Shown here one piece after another: positions 1,627 through 9,672 of a DNA stretch of 26,079 nt. Source of the stretch: a virus; the IMG/VR virus record IMGVR_UViG_3300030943_000154, positions 1-26,079 of that record; one strand, 5' to 3'. The notes beneath the pieces are model-generated. The model was not told the origin of the DNA, ran no database searches, and saw nothing but the letters and a program-made list of their open reading frames with translations. Position 1 is the first letter of the stretch; every line of letters starts with the position of its first letter. A program made the translations under genes and the position numbers.

Positions 1627-2535
1627 ATGAAGTATTCTCATCTCATTTCTGCTGTCATGAATGGCAAGTGGTTTTTAAGACCACAAGACGCCTTCGCTAG
1701 CGATGCCATCATTCATAAATTGCTGGAGCGTGAGTATGATTCCGTTACGGATTCACACATTCTTTCCGATTCCAAGCCGTTTATGGCCATTATTGGTTCC
1801 TCCAAAGTAGCAGCAAGAGCTTCTTCGTATGACAATGTTCCTGAAGAAAGCACCGCCATCGTATCGATAGCCGGTACCATGCTCAAGTATGGTACCATGT
1901 GCAGTTATGGAACAACTGAAATTGCTGCCGCCATCATTGAAGCTGCCAACCATCCGAGAATCGGATCCATGGTTGCTGATTATGACTCTGGTGGTGGTTC
2001 CGTCGATGCCATCGCTCCCATCATTGAGGCACAGAACTATTTCCGCAGCAAGGGTAAATCCATTGTTGCCTGTGTCGATTTGTGCGCTTCAGCTGCTTAC
2101 TACTCCGCCATCTATTGTAATGAGATCATTGCCGGCAACGACATTTCATCCGAGATCGGTTCTATCGGTGTGATGATGTCGTTCTGGGATTGGGCAAAAG
2201 CAAAAGAAGAACAAGGTGGAAAACAGCACACCATTTATTCAAACCATAGCGATTGGAAAAATAAACCGTTCGAATTAGCACTTAAAGGAGAATATGAACA
2301 AATCAAACTCGAGGAACTGGATCCCCTTGCAAAAAAATTCCAGGCCGCCGTCATCCAACGTCGGGGAGACAAACTTAAGCAAGAAACTGCAGGGATACTC
2401 GCCGGAAGAATGTTCTTCGCTGAAACAGCCAAGGAAGTTGGCTTGATCGATCACGTAGGTTCCCTGGACATGGCCATTGGCAGAGCTCGTGAAATCAGAA
2501 ACAACATGTTAGTCAACAACTATCTAAATATCTAA
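1627..2535 (+). CDS. S49 (SppA-type) serine peptidase, likely prohead maturation protease
   Basis: The product has 302 residues, about the size of phage S49-family proteases. Residues 75-90 form the first strand of the clp/crotonase-like fold. ADYDSGGGSVDA (117-128) is the oxyanion loop. CASAAYYSA (153-161) carries the nucleophile, Ser155. The Lys general base of the Ser-Lys dyad is likely Lys211 in SDWKNKPF, at the spacing known for bacterial SppA. In phages this family cuts scaffold and capsid pro-peptides inside the prohead. The capsid gene starts 11 bp downstream, which supports that role. No signal peptide or membrane segment is present, unlike cellular SppA. The ATG at 1627 is just after the palindrome of promoter A. 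Confidence 0.85.
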   Translation: MKYSHLISAVMNGKWFLRPQDAFASDAIIHKLLEREYDSVTDSHILSDSKPFMAIIGSSKVAARASSYDNVPEESTAIVSIAGTMLKYGTMCSYGTTEIAAAIIEAANHPRIGSMVADYDSGGGSVDAIAPIIEAQNYFRSKGKSIVACVDLCASAAYYSAIYCNEIIAGNDISSEIGSIGVMMSFWDWAKAKEEQGGKQHTIYSNHSDWKNKPFELALKGEYEQIKLEELDPLAKKFQAAVIQRRGDKLKQETAGILAGRMFFAETAKEVGLIDHVGSLDMAIGRAREIRNNMLVNNYLNI

Positions 2536-2546
2536 AACCAAAATTT

Positions 2547-3977
2547 ATGTTTGAAAAAATTTTAGCGCTCGTTCTGTCCGTTTTTCCAAAGGTAGCCTCT
2601 CTTCCCAAGAATGCGGAAGGGAAAAGCATCTTGACGGCTGAAATGAAAACCACTCTCCAGGAAAAGTTTGGAGAGAAGTTCGTCGAACAATTCGAAAAGG
2701 ATCTGGCCGAAGCCGAGAAGTCCGATTTGAACGTGACAACCTCCCCCACTGTTGTTAAACTTCAGCAGGATCTGGCTGACATGAAAAGCAAGTTCGAAGC
2801 AGCTCAGGCTGAAAACCTGACGTTGAAGGAAACCAATGGCAAATTGGAAAAAGTTGCTGAGTTGGACATCACTGAAACCATTGACATGAACAAAACCGGT
2901 AAAAAGGTTGCATTCAAGCCGAACATGGCCTACATGCACAACAGAGTGATTGAAGAGTATTTCAATCAAGGTACCATGCAGTATTCGGGTGATGACACCA
3001 TCAAAACCTCCGAACTGCAGGATGAATTCGGCAAGTATGTCAGTGGCCAGAAGCTGGATGTGTTCAAGAGCTTGAATCTCGGATTGACCATCACGGATTA
3101 CATGACCACGGTTGTCACGGACAAATCCGAATGGAGAGCAGCCCACGCCATCATCACGAGCGTACTTCAGCAGTTCACTCCGAAGTGGACGCCCAAAGGG
3201 GTTACTGAATTCACACCCATCACTATCAAGAATTTCATTCTTAAGGTGAATTTCCCGATCACTCCGAGCGACATCATCGACAAGTACATCGCGTACCTGT
3301 ACGACGAAACCAAAACTCCGGACCAGATGCCTATCGTTGCCTTCGTAATCAACGAACTGGTGTTACCCCAACTGTTGGAAGACCTGGAACTGGCCATGGC
3401 TACCGGCAAGTTCGTCGAACGCATCAAAACAACCGACGGTGAAGCCGGTTCTTCCGCCCTGGAATCAATGGACGGTGTTCTGACCATCCTGGAAGCCATC
3501 AAGGCCAACCCAACCAACAATGCAACATTCCTGTTGGATGGTGTTGTTTTGACATCTGAAAACATCCTGGAAGAAATAGACAAAGCCGTCGATGCCGTTC
3601 CCTACAAGTACAAAAAGAAAAAGATGCTGATCCATGCGGATCCGGATCTGATCACCCTGTACCGTCGTGCCTATCGCACCAAATACCCCGTGACCAAAAA
3701 TGAAGATGCCGATAAGTTCCGCGTGGACTTCTCCAATCTGACTTTTGCCCCGATCGACGGTCTTGTTGGCACCGGTGTGTTCTTCATCACCCCGAAAGAA
3801 AACTTCATCCACCTGATGAGCCGTAACGTCAACGACGCAAAAATCTTCATGCAGGTTCAGAACTACGACGTGAAGGTTTTCATGGAGTTCCACAAGGGTA
3901 CCGGTTTTGCCATGGAAGAAGCCATCTTCGCCTACATTCCTCCTACGGGTTCCGGTTCTGTTGGTGGTGGTCTTTAA
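2547..3977 (+). CDS. Major capsid protein with an N-terminal helical pro-domain
   Basis: The product has 476 residues. Residues 1-66 are charged and helical, and 68-106 form a clear coiled coil (KLQQDLADMKSKFEAAQAEN). From about 110 the sequence changes to a globular mixed fold that runs to the Gly-rich tail GSGSVGGGL. The size, its position right after a prohead protease and the coiled-coil leader fit an HK97-fold capsid protein whose N-terminal domain acts as built-in scaffold and is removed on maturation. The fold itself is inferred because I see no diagnostic short motif. Codon use is the most GC-rich and regular of the window, as expected for the most abundant virion protein. Confidence 0.75.
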   Translation: MFEKILALVLSVFPKVASLPKNAEGKSILTAEMKTTLQEKFGEKFVEQFEKDLAEAEKSDLNVTTSPTVVKLQQDLADMKSKFEAAQAENLTLKETNGKLEKVAELDITETIDMNKTGKKVAFKPNMAYMHNRVIEEYFNQGTMQYSGDDTIKTSELQDEFGKYVSGQKLDVFKSLNLGLTITDYMTTVVTDKSEWRAAHAIITSVLQQFTPKWTPKGVTEFTPITIKNFILKVNFPITPSDIIDKYIAYLYDETKTPDQMPIVAFVINELVLPQLLEDLELAMATGKFVERIKTTDGEAGSSALESMDGVLTILEAIKANPTNNATFLLDGVVLTSENILEEIDKAVDAVPYKYKKKKMLIHADPDLITLYRRAYRTKYPVTKNEDADKFRVDFSNLTFAPIDGLVGTGVFFITPKENFIHLMSRNVNDAKIFMQVQNYDVKVFMEFHKGTGFAMEEAIFAYIPPTGSGSVGGGL

Positions 3978-4008: not shown

Positions 4009-4587
4009 ATGCCTCCCTACTCCCCCGTATCAGTACCCAAGTCCTCCGCAAATGCAGGTCGTCCAACAGGAAAAAAAGCTTTCCTGTTGGTCTTCCTGAT
4101 GAAAGACTTGCTCACCTTCACCAGAACTGAAGGAACTCCCAGTGTTACCGGCTTTGAATTCTTGCCTGGTAAGAAACCGATCGGCATTTATGCTACCAAT
4201 ACGACACAGAATGTTTACCACCAGAGCGCCGGAGAAAAGGATGCCCGTGGTTTCATTCATCATGCCGATTTCGAACATCCTGGCGACAGCGTGGCTTTTG
4301 ACACGTTCATGGAAAACAACATCAACGAAGAGTTGGGTGTTATCCAGGTGTCTTGCCTTGACGGTATCGATTGCAAGATTGCCGGTTATCCCGGAAATCC
4401 CCTTTCCATCACCCAGGACAACAGCCAGGACAACAAGGATGCCAACAAGCATACTGTTACCATGGCTCAGGATTTCGCTGGCTCCGTGCTTGGTAGAATC
4501 GCTAAAGCCTTGATCCCGGAAACGGACAGTGCAGAAGTGAACGCCTTGCTTGGTTTGCCTTCCGGATCTACCGGTGGAGGAATCTAA
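4009..4587 (+). CDS. Virion structural protein (tail tube or head decoration candidate)
   Basis: The 192-residue product follows the capsid gene by 31 bp, with AAAGGAAAT before the ATG as a plausible ribosome site. It is beta-rich with no membrane segment or enzyme motif. It ends in LPSGSTGGGI, a Gly/Ser tail very like the capsid protein's GSGSVGGGL. The block is closed by a terminator about 40 bp downstream, so the three genes protease, capsid and this one form a single high-output unit. This points to a major virion component, either the tail tube or a capsid-surface protein. I cannot separate these from sequence. Confidence 0.6.
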   Translation: MPPYSPVSVPKSSANAGRPTGKKAFLLVFLMKDLLTFTRTEGTPSVTGFEFLPGKKPIGIYATNTTQNVYHQSAGEKDARGFIHHADFEHPGDSVAFDTFMENNINEELGVIQVSCLDGIDCKIAGYPGNPLSITQDNSQDNKDANKHTVTMAQDFAGSVLGRIAKALIPETDSAEVNALLGLPSGSTGGGI

Positions 4588-4624: not shown

Positions 4625-4657
4625 AAGAGCCTGGCCGAATCTCGGTCAGGCTCTTTT
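4625..4657 (+). terminator. Strong rho-independent terminator closing the head block
   Basis: AAGAGCCTGGCCGA (4625-4638) pairs with TCGGTCAGGCTCTT (4642-4655) through 14 pairs, one of them G-U, around a 3-nt loop, and the T-run continues to 4657. The next GTCCTTT element begins at 4658, directly on the last T. Confidence 0.85.
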
Positions 4658-4724: not shown

Positions 4725-5801
4725 ATGGCAAAGAAAAAAGACGAAAAACCTATTGAACCGGCTGAAAATATCGGTTTGAATGCGAATGAAACACCGCCGG
4801 AGGAAACACCCGCCGCGGAAAATGCTCCAATTGAAGAGGAAGCACCTGCAGCTGAAGAAATTCCTGCAGAAGAAAGCGATGCACCTGAATCGACGGATGC
4901 TTCTCAGGATGAAAATAAAGCACCTGCAGCTGAAGAAATTCCTGCAGAAGAAAGCGATGCACCTGAATCGACGGATGCTTCTCAGGATGAAAATAAAGCG
5001 CCTGCAGAAGATGATCAGGAAGAGCAACTATACGAAGTGAACAAAAAAAAGGTGGCCATTGTCATCCCTTACCTCAAATCGAAAGCCCAAGGATCCGAAT
5101 TGTTGTATGCCATCCGTTCCATCGCCAAGAATTTCAAAGAAGTCGATTACCAGCTGGTGGTAATTGGTGACAAGGAAGATTGGTTCAGTGATGATATCCT
5201 GTTCATCGAACATGAATGCATCAGTTCAAATCCCCAGGCTGATGTACTGAACAAACTGTTGATGGTCCTGATCAACGAAAATGTCTGTGAGGACTTTATC
5301 TGGTCGAACGATGATATCTATTTCGTTTCCCAGACATCCGTCGAAGACATTCAGGTGTTGAAAATATCCGGGCTGCTGAAGAATGAATCGAACAATCAAA
5401 CCTTGTACAATGCCAATCGTGCACGTACCATCGACCGGCTGTTAAGCAAACAACTTCCAATCCGAAATTTCGACACTCATCTGCCATTTTTCTTTGAAAA
5501 GGGAAAGATGATGGAGGTGATTGAGGCATTTCCTGAAATGCTTTCCCAGGGGCTGTTGATGTCTTCCATGTACTTCAACTTTCATGTCGATCCAGAAACT
5601 GAAACTGAAAAGCTTGACTGGAGCTCGGACAAATGGATGCTGCGTGTCATATCCTCTCTGGCTACGGAAGATAAAAAACAAACCTTCCGCCGCCTGATCG
5701 GTAAGAAACACTTCCTGAATCATTCAGAAGCCGGCTTCAGCAAGCTCCTCATGAGTTGGCTTGACAAGCAATTCTCTGAAAAATCAAGATTCGAAAAGTG
5801 A
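4725..5801 (+). CDS. Glycosyltransferase-like (Stealth-like) protein with an acidic repeat linker
   Basis: The product has 358 residues from ATG 4725. An upstream in-frame ATG at 4689 lies inside promoter B and is less likely. Residues 1-105 are a Pro/Ala/Glu-rich, very acidic disordered arm with a 26-residue unit repeated exactly twice. From 107 it changes to a globular domain: KKKVAIVIPYLK (107-118), WSNDDIYFV (193-201) with an NDD triad like the DxD of nucleotide-sugar enzymes, and NFDTHLPFFFEKGK (248-261). The order NDD then DTHLPF resembles the conserved regions of Stealth-type hexose-phosphate transferases. A role in modifying virion or host surface glycans is inference. The stop overlaps the GTG start of the next gene (GTGA). 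Confidence 0.55.
   Translation: MAKKKDEKPIEPAENIGLNANETPPEETPAAENAPIEEEAPAAEEIPAEESDAPESTDASQDENKAPAAEEIPAEESDAPESTDASQDENKAPAEDDQEEQLYEVNKKKVAIVIPYLKSKAQGSELLYAIRSIAKNFKEVDYQLVVIGDKEDWFSDDILFIEHECISSNPQADVLNKLLMVLINENVCEDFIWSNDDIYFVSQTSVEDIQVLKISGLLKNESNNQTLYNANRARTIDRLLSKQLPIRNFDTHLPFFFEKGKMMEVIEAFPEMLSQGLLMSSMYFNFHVDPETETEKLDWSSDKWMLRVISSLATEDKKQTFRRLIGKKHFLNHSEAGFSKLLMSWLDKQFSEKSRFEK
4840..4995 (+). repeat. Exact 78-bp tandem duplication inside the gene at 4725
   Basis: Copies 4840-4917 and 4918-4995 are identical base for base, and a third begins with AAGCGCCTGCAG at 4996. Each encodes 26 residues of the acidic arm (unit APAAEEIPAEE followed by SDAPESTDASQDENK). Perfect identity at third codon positions indicates a recent duplication. 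The number of units may vary between related phages. Confidence 0.9.
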
Positions 5802-6502
5802 AAGGTGAAATCCTTGAATGGTTGGCTTCGGGTTGCAACCTAGACCGTGGTGTCGAGCTGCTCGAACAATACTCCAAAAACAAGCTGTTGGTCCGCCTCG
5901 TGAAAGCGAGTCCGGCCAACAGCCGTAGTTTGGTCATCAGGGAATTATCAATTCTGGCCGATATCGATGCATCAGATATCAATAAAGTTGCACCTGGTGC
6001 AATTAAATTGGCGCAAAATGCAAATTCCACTCAAAAGAAATACCCTAATTTCAGGGATGAATTCCCATTTCTGAACGAACCAAGCTGCCCCATGGAGCTG
6101 CGTGCCCTGGTGACGGATAAATTTTCATCGTTCTACCGGTACCGGGAATTGCATGCACATCTCTTCAACTGTACTTCCGCCCAGGAGTGTGCACAAACAT
6201 CCGGTGCGATCATTGAGAACTACCTGGAGAATCGTTCCATCTATGCCGAACTGGATTACTACAAAAAGCACAAGACGGTACTAGGTAAACATCCGATATT
6301 CAAGCACTTCAACAAAATGAAGGATCTGCGAAAATTGGGAATAAAAGACCTGGTCATAAAGCAGCTGCAGCTCGAGCATAATATCTGGAGAATCGAATCG
6401 GAAATGGAGAAGAAAGACAAACCACATCTGGAGGCGGAACGCCGGCGCCGGCTGGAGGAAAAGAAGGCGGAACTGTCCGAAGTGGGAAGATTGCTTGGAT
6501 GA
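5798..6502 (+). CDS. Unknown 234-residue phage protein with a GTG start
   Basis: The GTG at 5798 overlaps the previous stop (GTGA), so translation is probably coupled. It begins KGEILEWLASGCNLDRGVELLEQY. The middle (55-110) has PNFRDEFPFLNEPSCPMELRALVTDKF. The C-terminal 35 residues are a highly charged helix (KPHLEAERRRRLEEKKAEL) that could be a coiled coil. I do not recognise a family or catalytic motif. The sequence has no membrane segment. Its place between the glycosyltransferase-like gene and the packaging genes suggests a conserved assembly or packaging accessory of Bacteroidota phages, which is inference. Confidence 0.65.
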   Translation: MKGEILEWLASGCNLDRGVELLEQYSKNKLLVRLVKASPANSRSLVIRELSILADIDASDINKVAPGAIKLAQNANSTQKKYPNFRDEFPFLNEPSCPMELRALVTDKFSSFYRYRELHAHLFNCTSAQECAQTSGAIIENYLENRSIYAELDYYKKHKTVLGKHPIFKHFNKMKDLRKLGIKDLVIKQLQLEHNIWRIESEMEKKDKPHLEAERRRRLEEKKAELSEVGRLLG

Positions 6503-7071
6503 ACAAATATTTTTCAATTGATGATATCCAAAAGGAACGCAACAACGCCAGATTGTATTCAGCCAGGTTTGAAAGGCTGCACTTTTTCCGGATACGGAAT
6601 CTTAAGGATTTATGTGGCCGGTTACCAGGAGAAGAAGAGGTCTTCTTTATTGAGACTACGAAGAGTTTCAACGCCTTCACATTCATTGTCTACCTCATAC
6701 GGCATGCCGGAAGAGTGGATCATCTATTCATCGCTACTTACTCCATCAACGACAGGATCATCAGTTCCCTGGTGCGGTGGAAGGAAGCTGGACTCATCGG
6801 CTCAGTTGAGATTGAGATTTCGGAAAGCATCAAATTTAGGATGCCACGCATTTATGACCGGTTGGAACAGTTGTCCAGGGCTGGACGGATATCCGTCCGC
6901 TATGAATGGACGCACCGGAAGGTTTCCTGCCTCAAGACTCCAGCTGGCCAGTTTGTGGTCGAGGGTTCCGGGAACTATGGAGAGAACGCGATGAAAGAAC
7001 AATACATATTTTGTAAATCAGAAAAAGTCTATGAGTTCAGATATAACCTTGAGAGTTGCCAGGTGGGATGA
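6499..7071 (+). CDS. Phospholipase D-like protein with a degenerate single HKD motif
   Basis: The ATG at 6499 overlaps the previous stop (ATGA). The product has 190 residues. HRK at 139-141 followed by VVEGSGNYGENAMKEQY (153-169) matches the second half of a phospholipase D/HKD site (HxK, later GSxN and a Glu). The usual Asp five residues after the Lys is missing (Lys146 is there), and there is only one such motif. Some small family members act as dimers with one motif per chain, including nucleases. HLFIATYSINDRIISSL (75-91) resembles the core strand-helix before the site. It may bind DNA or phosphodiesters without cutting. The neighbours are packaging genes, so a DNA-handling role fits better than lipid cleavage. 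Confidence 0.55.
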   Translation: MNKYFSIDDIQKERNNARLYSARFERLHFFRIRNLKDLCGRLPGEEEVFFIETTKSFNAFTFIVYLIRHAGRVDHLFIATYSINDRIISSLVRWKEAGLIGSVEIEISESIKFRMPRIYDRLEQLSRAGRISVRYEWTHRKVSCLKTPAGQFVVEGSGNYGENAMKEQYIFCKSEKVYEFRYNLESCQVG

Positions 7072-7387
7072 TGTCAAGCCTCCGGAATGGCTCAGCAAGA
7101 TAAACTTTGACGAGTTGGAAAAACTGGCCGCCGTCGGATATACCACTGAAAAGATTGCCATGTTCTTTGATGTTCCCAAAATAGAGTTCATGTATTACTT
7201 CATGCTGGAGGATAGCAAGCTCCGGTACCACTATGACCGTGGGATACTTTACCATGATGCAAAATCTGGCATGGCCATGCTGGAGGACGCTGATCAGAAT
7301 GCATCACAGGCTCAACGCCTGGATAAACTTCGTAAAACAATGAAATTTAGAAACGCTGTAGAAGAGATCATGTATGGAGGGATTTAA
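7031..7387 (+). CDS. Small DNA-binding-like protein, terminase small subunit candidate
   Basis: The product has 118 residues. FDELEKLAAVGYTTEKIAMFFDV (25-47) looks like a helix-turn-helix with the 'E-L-A-x-x-G-x-x-x-x-x-I-A' pattern seen in small terminases and other site-reading proteins. The rest is helical (SGMAMLEDADQNASQAQRLDKL). It overlaps the previous gene by 41 bp and the next by 14 bp, so translation is tightly coupled. It lies two genes before the large terminase. Either this protein or the next could be the small subunit. The HTH favours this one. Confidence 0.55.
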   Translation: MSSDITLRVARWDDVKPPEWLSKINFDELEKLAAVGYTTEKIAMFFDVPKIEFMYYFMLEDSKLRYHYDRGILYHDAKSGMAMLEDADQNASQAQRLDKLRKTMKFRNAVEEIMYGGI

Positions 7388-8012
7388 TTTCAAGAAATCG
7401 CATTTTGACAAACTGCAGGATTATATCCAGTCAGGATCGACATACATACTCTCAGACGAGGAACAGCGTTATATGGACATCTTGTACCTACTGAACTCGC
7501 TTCGTAGGAAATATGGCAAGGAAAACGCCATTGCGTTCATTCAGCGCCCTCCGTATGACATTTCCTATCGCAGATCCAGGCAGATGTTTGATGAAGCCAT
7601 CAACCTGTTCTACATGGATGATGGGATAGACAAGCAGGCTCAGCGGAACATGCTGTTCGAGCAGTTGATGTCAGCAGCTGCAGTCATTGCCCAGACAGCG
7701 GATTGCAGCCGTGATTTTGAGGTTTACAGCGACATGTTATCGCGTGCTTACAAAATCAAAGGGTTGGATACTCCTGAGCCTCCGCGCATCCCTGAGGGGT
7801 TATACAACAAACCCATCAAGATCTATTCCATTGATGCCCGAAAAATAAGTCTGATGCCGGCAGATCGCAACGACCTGGCTGAACGAATTGATGCCCTGGA
7901 TGTGCCTGAGGCAGAAAAGCGCCGGTTCCGCCAGGAGTCAGGCGTTGAGGAAGTGAACTTCTTAGAAATACTCGATGACCAGGAAAGCAAGATTGGATCT
8001 GAGCAGGCCTGA
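7374..8012 (+). CDS. Packaging-associated protein, second terminase small subunit candidate
   Basis: The 212-residue product is mostly helical. Residues 25-75 (SDEEQRYMDILYLLNSLRRK, then ENAIAFIQRPPYDISYRRSRQMF) and 90-130 form two helical clusters. The C-terminal part (140-212) is Pro-containing and charged, which could be the segment contacting the large subunit. No catalytic motif is visible. The gene overlaps the large terminase by 38 bp, the usual place of a small subunit. With an HTH-like protein directly upstream, the two may share site recognition and motor contact, which is inference. Confidence 0.55.
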   Translation: MEGFNFKKSHFDKLQDYIQSGSTYILSDEEQRYMDILYLLNSLRRKYGKENAIAFIQRPPYDISYRRSRQMFDEAINLFYMDDGIDKQAQRNMLFEQLMSAAAVIAQTADCSRDFEVYSDMLSRAYKIKGLDTPEPPRIPEGLYNKPIKIYSIDARKISLMPADRNDLAERIDALDVPEAEKRRFRQESGVEEVNFLEILDDQESKIGSEQA

Positions 8013-9672
8013 CGTAGAGGTACGTTATTCCAATTGGTTGGCTCAGGTGTGCAGCATCATGATGCCACGGGATTTCTATGGCATCCTTGGACGTGCTGCC
8101 TCAAAGACGACGGACTTTGTGGTCCAACGCCTTCAGGAGGCTGTTTACGACCTTCCAGGAGCTCCGTTCGCGTTTGTTTCAGACACGTATGCCAATTTGC
8201 ATAAGAACGTCATTCCATCCCTTCAGGAAGGTCTAAGGCTGCATGGCTGGGAAGAGGGTGTTCATTATGTGATCAACAATGAACCTCCGGCAGAGTGGCG
8301 TTCACAGATGTATAACATCATGTCGTCCTGGAAGAATACCATGACGTTTTTCAATGGCTTCAACATTACATTCATTTCATTGGATAGACCGGCCATCGGC
8401 GCCGGCCGTTCTTATGTTGGTGTGTTCGGTGATGAAGTAAAATATTTTCCTGAAGTGAGGATCGCCAACCTTTTGAAGGCGGTTCGTGGTTATCGTGCCA
8501 AATATGGGGAATCTCCGTTTTACCGGTCTCAGACCTTTACCACCGATATGCCGGATCCGAACCGGATCGGGGAATATGACTGGATCCTGAAAATGGTCAA
8601 GAAAAACGACAAACAGAAGATCATAGATCTGCTTCAGGTGGGATTCACCTACAATGAAACGAAAAAGGAATATGCTGTCACTTTGGATGGTAAGAATCAA
8701 AAGAGGATTGCCCTGGCTAAACGTAATATGGAGCGTTGGGAGGAACGCTGGAACAAATGCCGGAAGAGAACATCGCTCTTCCTGATCGCATCCTCATTCG
8801 TCAATGTGGATATTCTGGGGCTTGATTGGTTCGATGAAGAGTTTGCCGTCGGACTGGAGGGAGTGATGACTAACATCCTATCCATAATACCCAAACTATC
8901 TGCAGCATCGCGGTTCTACTCAAACCTGGCTGAAAGACATTTCTATTCAGATGGGAATAACAATGAATATATCGAGACCCTACCGTTTGGATCCGATCCG
9001 GATTGCAGGGCTCTCAGACACCTGGACACCAATGCACCCATTGAGGGAGGACTAGACATAGGCAATACCTTATGGATGATCTTTGGTCAGCAGAAGGGCA
9101 GTACCTATCGTGTGATGAAGGAACTGTACACACTACCACCATCCTACATCAGGGAGATGGCAGATGAGTTCATCCGTTACTTTGCCGGGCATCGCCGTAA
9201 GAACCTGAAGTTGTACTATGACAGGGCAGCAAACAACTATGCCAAGATTGGGCAGGATGTGGCCACACAGATCAAGAAGGCTATTGAGGTTGATATCAAT
9301 GGCAAGAGAACCGGATGGGCAGTACAGTTGATGAGTGTTGGCCAAGGGAACATTGGCAGCAATGCTGAGTATAGCTTCATGATGGAACTCATGAGCGGTA
9401 ATAACAAGACGCTACCAAAGCTGTTGATCGATCGGACCAACTGCCCTAACCTGAAGGCACAGCTGGAGAAGACAGCAGCCAAGATGTCAAGCGGTAGCCG
9501 TATGGCTGGCATGGTGGTAAAACAAAAGAAGGTGGACGGACTGCCAGTCCATCGATTGGCAAAGGAATCCACAAACTTCACGGACGCATTCAAGTATCTG
9601 TTATGTAGGAAAGCATTCCTAAAGATGATTAACAAACCATCTGGATCCGCATCAATGACACCCAAAGGATAG
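7975..9672 (+). CDS. Terminase large subunit (packaging ATPase-nuclease)
   Basis: The 565-residue length is normal for the family. GRAASKTTD (39-47) stands where the Walker A loop belongs but departs from GxxxxGK(T/S), as many terminases do. YVGVFGDEVKYF (147-158) is the Walker B strand with Asp153-Glu154. EGGLDIGNTLWMIFGQQ (about 357-373) opens the RNase H-like nuclease domain with its first Asp. LYYDRAANNY and DRTNCPNLKAQLE follow in the expected order. The protein cuts and pumps DNA into the prohead. The start overlaps the upstream gene. The next in-frame ATGs (8059 and 8062) would remove the segment before the Walker A loop. A terminator follows the gene. Confidence 0.85.
   Translation: MTRKARLDLSRPDVEVRYSNWLAQVCSIMMPRDFYGILGRAASKTTDFVVQRLQEAVYDLPGAPFAFVSDTYANLHKNVIPSLQEGLRLHGWEEGVHYVINNEPPAEWRSQMYNIMSSWKNTMTFFNGFNITFISLDRPAIGAGRSYVGVFGDEVKYFPEVRIANLLKAVRGYRAKYGESPFYRSQTFTTDMPDPNRIGEYDWILKMVKKNDKQKIIDLLQVGFTYNETKKEYAVTLDGKNQKRIALAKRNMERWEERWNKCRKRTSLFLIASSFVNVDILGLDWFDEEFAVGLEGVMTNILSIIPKLSAASRFYSNLAERHFYSDGNNNEYIETLPFGSDPDCRALRHLDTNAPIEGGLDIGNTLWMIFGQQKGSTYRVMKELYTLPPSYIREMADEFIRYFAGHRRKNLKLYYDRAANNYAKIGQDVATQIKKAIEVDINGKRTGWAVQLMSVGQGNIGSNAEYSFMMELMSGNNKTLPKLLIDRTNCPNLKAQLEKTAAKMSSGSRMAGMVVKQKKVDGLPVHRLAKESTNFTDAFKYLLCRKAFLKMINKPSGSASMTPKG

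Follow-up and report, generated by a model that had tools for sequence, protein, structure and literature searches.

Why would a phage carry a gene resembling a sugar-phosphate transferase among its head and packaging genes? The question arises from a stretch of viral DNA of 26,079 nucleotides (IMG/VR record IMGVR_UViG_3300030943_000154, positions 1 to 26,079; hereinafter the window), in which a preliminary description had proposed a Stealth-like glycosyltransferase co-translated with genes leading to the terminase. Few systems of phage virion glycosylation are known, and such glycosylation can alter antibody recognition. Here we report that the gene occupies a fixed slot, that its carriers form a single clade, that the active site has been lost repeatedly, and that a mycobacteriophage relative lies upstream of a terminase gene, all of which are new observations.

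The open reading frame is real, as had been assumed: it encodes 358 aa, and homologues are found at the same slot in more than 100 contigs. The protein matches PHROG 7999 (function unknown) with E 1.2e-15, and searches of Pfam, NCBIfam and PHROGs gave it no functional name above a curated cut-off. The proposed co-translation is visible in the sequence. Specifically, the stop of the gene overlaps the start of the next one (GTGA, 5798-5801), and overlaps continue up to the terminase gene. Because a strong hairpin separates the Stealth-like gene from the capsid genes, the Stealth-like gene heads the terminase operon (Table 1). A sigma-70 promoter scan is uninformative here because Bacteroidota use another consensus. 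The identities of the major capsid protein (MCP) and the terminase large subunit (TerL) come from profiles and from the annotation of distant relatives; PDB searches with profiles of these two and of the small head gene brought up nothing useful. Just upstream of TerL, two overlapping genes of the window correspond to one gene of ~311 aa in L038, L043 and other contigs, indicating a gene split or fusion.

Table 1. Positions of genes, domains and sequence elements in the window.
Feature	Coordinates	Strand	Basis or remark
Head maturation protease (S49)	1627..2535	+	Pfam PF01343, E 7e-14; PHROG 53, E 5e-43
Major capsid protein (MCP)	2547..3977	+	Position and family; iterated profile matches annotated MCP of a P. 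gingivalis phage
Small conserved head gene (dec)	4009..4587	+	Profile search of relatives' contigs
Terminator-like hairpin between head gene and Stealth-like gene	4625..4655	+	14 pairs, folding z -5.16
Stealth-like protein gene	4725..5801	+	ORF and translation, 358 aa; stop overlaps start of next gene
N-terminal acidic, Pro/Ala/Glu-rich arm, residues 1-105	4725..5039	+	Composition; probably disordered
Tandem repeat in arm, 78 bp (26-aa unit)	4840..5007	+	TRF, 2.2 copies, 98% identity
GT-A/Stealth-like catalytic domain, residues 102-358 (core numbering 1-257)	5028..5798	+	AF2 model, structure matches
E125 (core E24) of E-L-x-x-A-x-R-S motif (Stealth CR2 EELRYSLRS)	5097..5099	+	Invariant in alignment A7
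N195-D196-D197 (NDD), equivalent of GNPTAB N406-D407-D408 (metal site)	5307..5315	+	Profile alignment
H252-x-P254; H aligns with GNPTAB H956, proposed general base	5478..5486	+	Profile alignment; H252 invariant in A7
Y283-x-N285	5571..5579	+	Invariant in A7; most degenerate copies lack the N
Lineage-specific segment P...W..D....LPVVS..P, residues 293-316 (core 192-215)	5601..5672	+	Kept despite active-site loss
Conserved gene p234	5798..6502	+	Co-translated with Stealth-like gene
Conserved hypothetical gene	6499..7071	+	PHROG 20533, E 1e-43; not found in part of lineage
Two overlapping genes (7031-7387 and 7374-8012)	7031..8012	+	Single ~311-aa gene in relatives
Terminase large subunit (TerL)	7975..9672	+	GRASAKT and FGDE motifs conserved; homologous to annotated terminases

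The N-terminal arm is acidic as described earlier, with 35 D/E and 6 K/R in residues 1-105, and its composition indicates that it is probably disordered. Arms of like composition precede the domain in slot homologues, with a median length of 61 aa in copies with an intact active site and 49 aa in degenerate copies; a few are very short. The gene of an otherwise near-identical contig (L003, 7776-8774) has one repeat unit fewer. Since the copy number of the 26-residue unit differs between nearly identical contigs, the length of the arm changes fast. One degenerate copy (L188, 11359-12237) has, instead of the arm, an N-terminus that is rich in Lys and Glu and resembles a coiled coil. At the corresponding place, a P. 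gingivalis phage (L317, 8555-9220) encodes an acidic protein with QTQNQDGDGTEE repeats that lacks the transferase domain.

The structure of residues 102-358 was predicted by AF2 with pLDDT of 95.2 and pTM of 0.92. The eight best solved matches to this core are all Stealth-family proteins, with Z from 21.9 to 19.6. Specifically, human GNPTAB aligns with Z of 21.9 and rmsd of 2.9 Å (238 of 257 residues), and Mycobacterium tuberculosis CpsY with Z of 19.6, while the next fold after the Stealth entries is that of GT6/GT8 enzymes, with Z of 11.7. CpsY is also the best Foldseek match of the core model (E 5.6e-12). Among viral models, the two best matches are nameless, and named Stealth proteins of giant viruses are close behind. 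Profiles of the family, searched against PDB sequences, find GNPTAB with E 8e-7 (10 sequences) and 1.8e-10 (49 sequences), and below E 1 the 49-sequence profile finds only Stealth enzymes, namely GNPTAB, its fly homologue and CpsY. The Stealth-like fold, originally a guess, is thus recovered by structure prediction and fold search with nothing else close, and we regard a GT-A/Stealth fold as practically certain. Designed PPR proteins, which appeared in a single-sequence phmmer search, were rejected: no stretch passes alone, they are missing from the profile searches, and their fold differs.

The protein departs from the Stealth family in two defining marks. Stealth_CR2 (Pfam PF11380) is matched weakly (E 5e-4; 20.7 bits, under the gathering cut-off of 39.4), as it is in relatives. 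Nevertheless, over the CR2 region with the NDD, the profile alignment is collinear from ELxxAxRS to NDD (E 1.8e-10). The CR1 motif, IDVVYTF in the Stealth family (PMC10668966), is absent, as are very similar sequences; the first strand reads VAIVIPY, and out-of-slot relatives come nearer with MDYVYVC. For the CLND/CIND of CR4, FLNH or FLNN is found nearby, placed differently between alignments, and the FPxxSxFE end is shared. In view of the CR1 motif and the Pfam cut-off, we call the protein Stealth-like, a member of a divergent phage branch and not a textbook Stealth protein.

The NDD triad and the DTHLPF segment, which contains H252 and P254, follow one another in the order claimed by the preliminary description and are collinear with the NDD and H-M-P motif of GNPTAB. 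In GNPTAB, D408 of the NDD binds metal and H956 is the proposed general base; R322, R986, and N1151 are needed as well (PMC11418123). E125, G148, D196, D197, H252, P254, Y283, and N285 are invariant across 49 homologues, a set picked by an [NM]DD pattern, so that the conservation of DD, unlike that of the other residues, is partly circular there. DD conservation was therefore re-tested on contigs ascertained by terminase and by capsid protein. The E, G, DD, H-x-P, and Y-x-N residues are near invariant, including in 21 out-of-slot homologues. By sequence alignment, R322 and R986 (CpsY R419) appear not to be conserved: Ser is found at both likely sites, with Ser, Thr or Ala at the likely position of the CR3 arginine (R986 or CpsY R419) among homologues. 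Because these catalytic arginines are apparently not conserved, the donor chemistry may differ from that of GNPTAB. The copy in the window is likely to be catalytically active.

In humans, GNPTAB attaches sugar-phosphate tags to lysosomal proteins. Its GlcNAc-1-phosphotransferase core (PDB 9bgf, 7s05, 7s6n) has the GT-A fold in common with the phage domain over the 238 residues aligned, and both contain E-L-x-x-x-x-R-S, NDD, H-x-P, and a C-terminal FPxxSxFE in the same order. Unlike GNPTAB, which has R322, R986 and the CR1 motif, the phage protein has a single domain of 257 aa without large spacers or accessory domains, and is encoded in a head operon. CpsY (PDB 8j2n), a bacterial Stealth protein, resembles the phage domain in its NDD and compact size, but its essential CR3 residue R419 is without counterpart there by sequence; CpsY serves the polysaccharide synthesis of the bacterium (PMC10668966).

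The gene is found at one place in the gene order, which runs MCP, small head gene, Stealth-like gene, p234 and, further downstream, terminase. Among viral contigs in which neighbour profile searches found MCP, small head gene, p234, and TerL together, it is flanked by the small head gene on one side and p234 on the other in 51 of 52 ascertained by TerL and 65 of 69 ascertained by MCP; these sets contain near-duplicates of one phage obtained from different samples, and the same phages may be in both. In host genomes, 36 of 63 loci found by terminase have the gene, or 35 by strict coordinates, the difference being L245, where an upstream-extended open frame overlaps the head gene. The hosts are Bacteroidota, including Bacteroides, Proteiniphilum, Algoriphagus, Cyclobacterium, and Sphingobacterium. 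The fixed slot favours a role in the head or in packaging over a role at the host surface.

The carriers group together in one supported clade of the terminase tree, among gene-less relatives such as Duneviridae; within this clade the gene is absent once (L150). This fits a single acquisition; as changes on the tree were counted without direction, gene loss in the outgroups is also possible. The trees are quick or FastTree trees, on which the single long rows L210, L188, and L113 are uncertainly placed. Relatives without the gene include Flavobacterium phage 6H, Cellulophaga phage Ingeline, B. thetaiotaomicron phage BT-TP2, and P. gingivalis phages. Their small head protein is mostly longer (median ORF of 275 aa vs 196 aa), and the extra part may be functionally related. 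In gene-less phages of the same lineage (L313-L316, L268-L311), both MCP and the small head protein are mostly longer. Among the terminase matches listed, this clade's gene is in no cultured phage record searched. In the open-licence literature, phage Stealth proteins are the subject of none of the papers found, and no virion proteome of a phage of the carrier clade came up.

The preliminary description had made its reading depend on conservation of the NDD residues in homologues, and here the result is divided. Both aspartates and the histidine of H-x-P remain in 57 of the 84 distinct slot proteins, leaving 27 without the full set; in host genomes, 21 copies keep them and 15 do not. Intact copies occur in Algoriphagus marincola DSM 16067 (L252), Mariniradius saccharolyticus AK6 (L255) and Bacteroides sp. 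GM023 (L239), and degenerate ones in Bacteroides heparinolyticus DSM 23917 (L238), where NDD has become AAD and H has become N, and in Proteiniphilum sp. X52 (L236). The two TerL trees give at least five independent losses. Most degenerate copies have also deleted residues 115-141. The fold persists. Proteins of the largest degenerate group can still be aligned with the intact profile over its full length (hhalign E 9.5e-28). A model built from degenerate sequences alone has pLDDT of 92.8, and the eight solved entries closest to it are all Stealth enzymes, with Z of 14.1 to 12.6, although searches with the sequences themselves find no Stealth entry. Sequence change is faster in degenerate copies than in intact ones, and faster than in TerL. 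Close degenerate pairs (dS < 0.35) have dN/dS of 0.15-0.32, which indicates purifying selection, compared with 0.03-0.14 for intact ones. The losses leave the fold assignment untouched and are an argument for a function of the protein besides catalysis.

Degenerate copies retain the lineage-specific segment at core 192-215. Core P192, W198, D201, P206, S209, and P215 are 85-100% conserved in degenerate copies (W198 93%, D201 85%, P206 89%, S209 96%), percentages that depend on alignments of very divergent sequences, and are partly conserved in intact copies. In 90% of out-of-slot homologues, the columns of W198 and D201 are gapped. The segment is a candidate partner interface.

A purely structural or assembly protein, whose GT-A domain no longer serves as an enzyme even in copies that retain the residues, would account for the locked slot, for a fold that has survived several losses of the active site, and for a segment 192-215 that is conserved regardless. 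We consider it improbable, since nearly all of the 57 slot proteins with D, D, and H also keep E24, G47, Y182, and N184 (core numbering), and out-of-slot homologues have the same set; if the domain neither catalysed a reaction nor bound a ligand, such a specific set of residues would not be expected to last. Ligand binding without transfer, by a nucleotide-sugar sensor or lectin-like protein, would suit the lack of sequence counterparts to the two phosphate-contacting arginines of GNPTAB. However, H252, the proposed general base, is invariant in intact copies and out-of-slot homologues, and plain binding needs no base; we consider such a protein very unlikely.

The enzyme could instead be directed purely at the host, acting on a glycan of the cell surface or a polymer of the envelope while the phage infects or persists as a lysogen (e.g., in superinfection exclusion), with the place of its gene a historical accident. 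Known bacterial Stealth proteins do make capsular or exopolysaccharide polymers (PMC10668966, PMC5974469), and the active site of the window copy is intact. Against this stand the copies retained without an active site and the 358-aa sequence itself, in which neither a signal peptide nor a membrane segment can be seen by eye. Genes for host-surface modification are usually accessory and mobile; the Stealth-like gene keeps its fixed place between the head genes and the terminase in phages whose hosts range from Bacteroides to Cyclobacterium. A purely host-directed enzyme is thus an unlikely explanation.

We favour an active, head-linked transferase with an additional non-catalytic role, which as a whole explanation we hold to be about evenly balanced between right and wrong. 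The gene product would be a GT-A-fold transferase of a divergent phage branch of the Stealth superfamily, related to GNPTAB and CpsY. Its NDD site would bind a nucleotide-sugar with metal, H252 would activate the acceptor, and sugar-1-phosphate (or sugar) would pass to a protein of the assembling head, while the acidic arm and residues 293-316 may hold the transferase to a phage partner. That a head protein is the acceptor is a tentative assignment, with somewhat less than an even chance. The second, non-catalytic role is rather probable: residues 293-316, the slot, and the fold are retained where the active site is gone, which points to a binding or assembly job without need of catalysis. Because gene-less relatives make heads and the gene has been lost once within the clade (L150), such an assembly role is dispensable in some contexts. 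A fuller history, in which a lineage of Bacteroidota phages captured a Stealth-type phosphotransferase once for head assembly, and the enzyme put sugar-phosphate onto a head protein and then became a structural pseudoenzyme several times, is possible but doubtful.

If the favoured reading is true, a general, so far unnamed modification or assembly route exists in a widespread lineage of Bacteroidota phages, including gut prophages. Phages that have lost the active site, several times over, but retained the gene offer a natural experiment, available in cultured lysogens, for telling catalytic and structural functions apart. If the pseudoenzyme reading is true, these phages illustrate, in natural steps, how an enzyme turns into a protein of the virion or of its assembly.

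A relative is also found in unrelated phages. Mycobacteriophage Fionnbharthvirus gp6 (Reptar3000, Fionnbharth; annotated hypothetical) belongs to the same superfamily, with NDD and E-L-H-x-P, and its gene lies ~500 bp upstream of terminase. It has neither the arm nor the 192-215 segment, and its R-P-G-x-N-E-E-L is nearer to Stealth. This suggests that the superfamily is recurrently associated with virion genes, although mycobacteriophages are a single further case. Capsid glycosylation by glycosyltransferases has been proposed for mycobacteriophages (Che8, cited in PMC11256854). Enzymes of the Che8 type are, on that account, phage-encoded sugar enzymes linked to virion proteins; for the Stealth-like protein, such a link is suggested only by gene position. 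The glycosyltransferases of the phage in PMC11256854 are near the 3' end of the genome, unlike the Stealth-like gene.

The domain has further settings among phages. In a second group (L065, L066, L068, L071-L073, L079, L080), it follows an N-terminal cysteine-rich segment (CGGCGTVKRR) and precedes a basic C-terminal tail. In L075 and L078, it lies within an ORF of 660-670 aa with a further C-terminal domain, possibly a methyltransferase. In Microbacterium phage Leaf (L019, 6037-8154), a relative adjoins genes annotated as two glycosyltransferases, together with an acetyltransferase and a methyltransferase; the group may be a glycan cluster.
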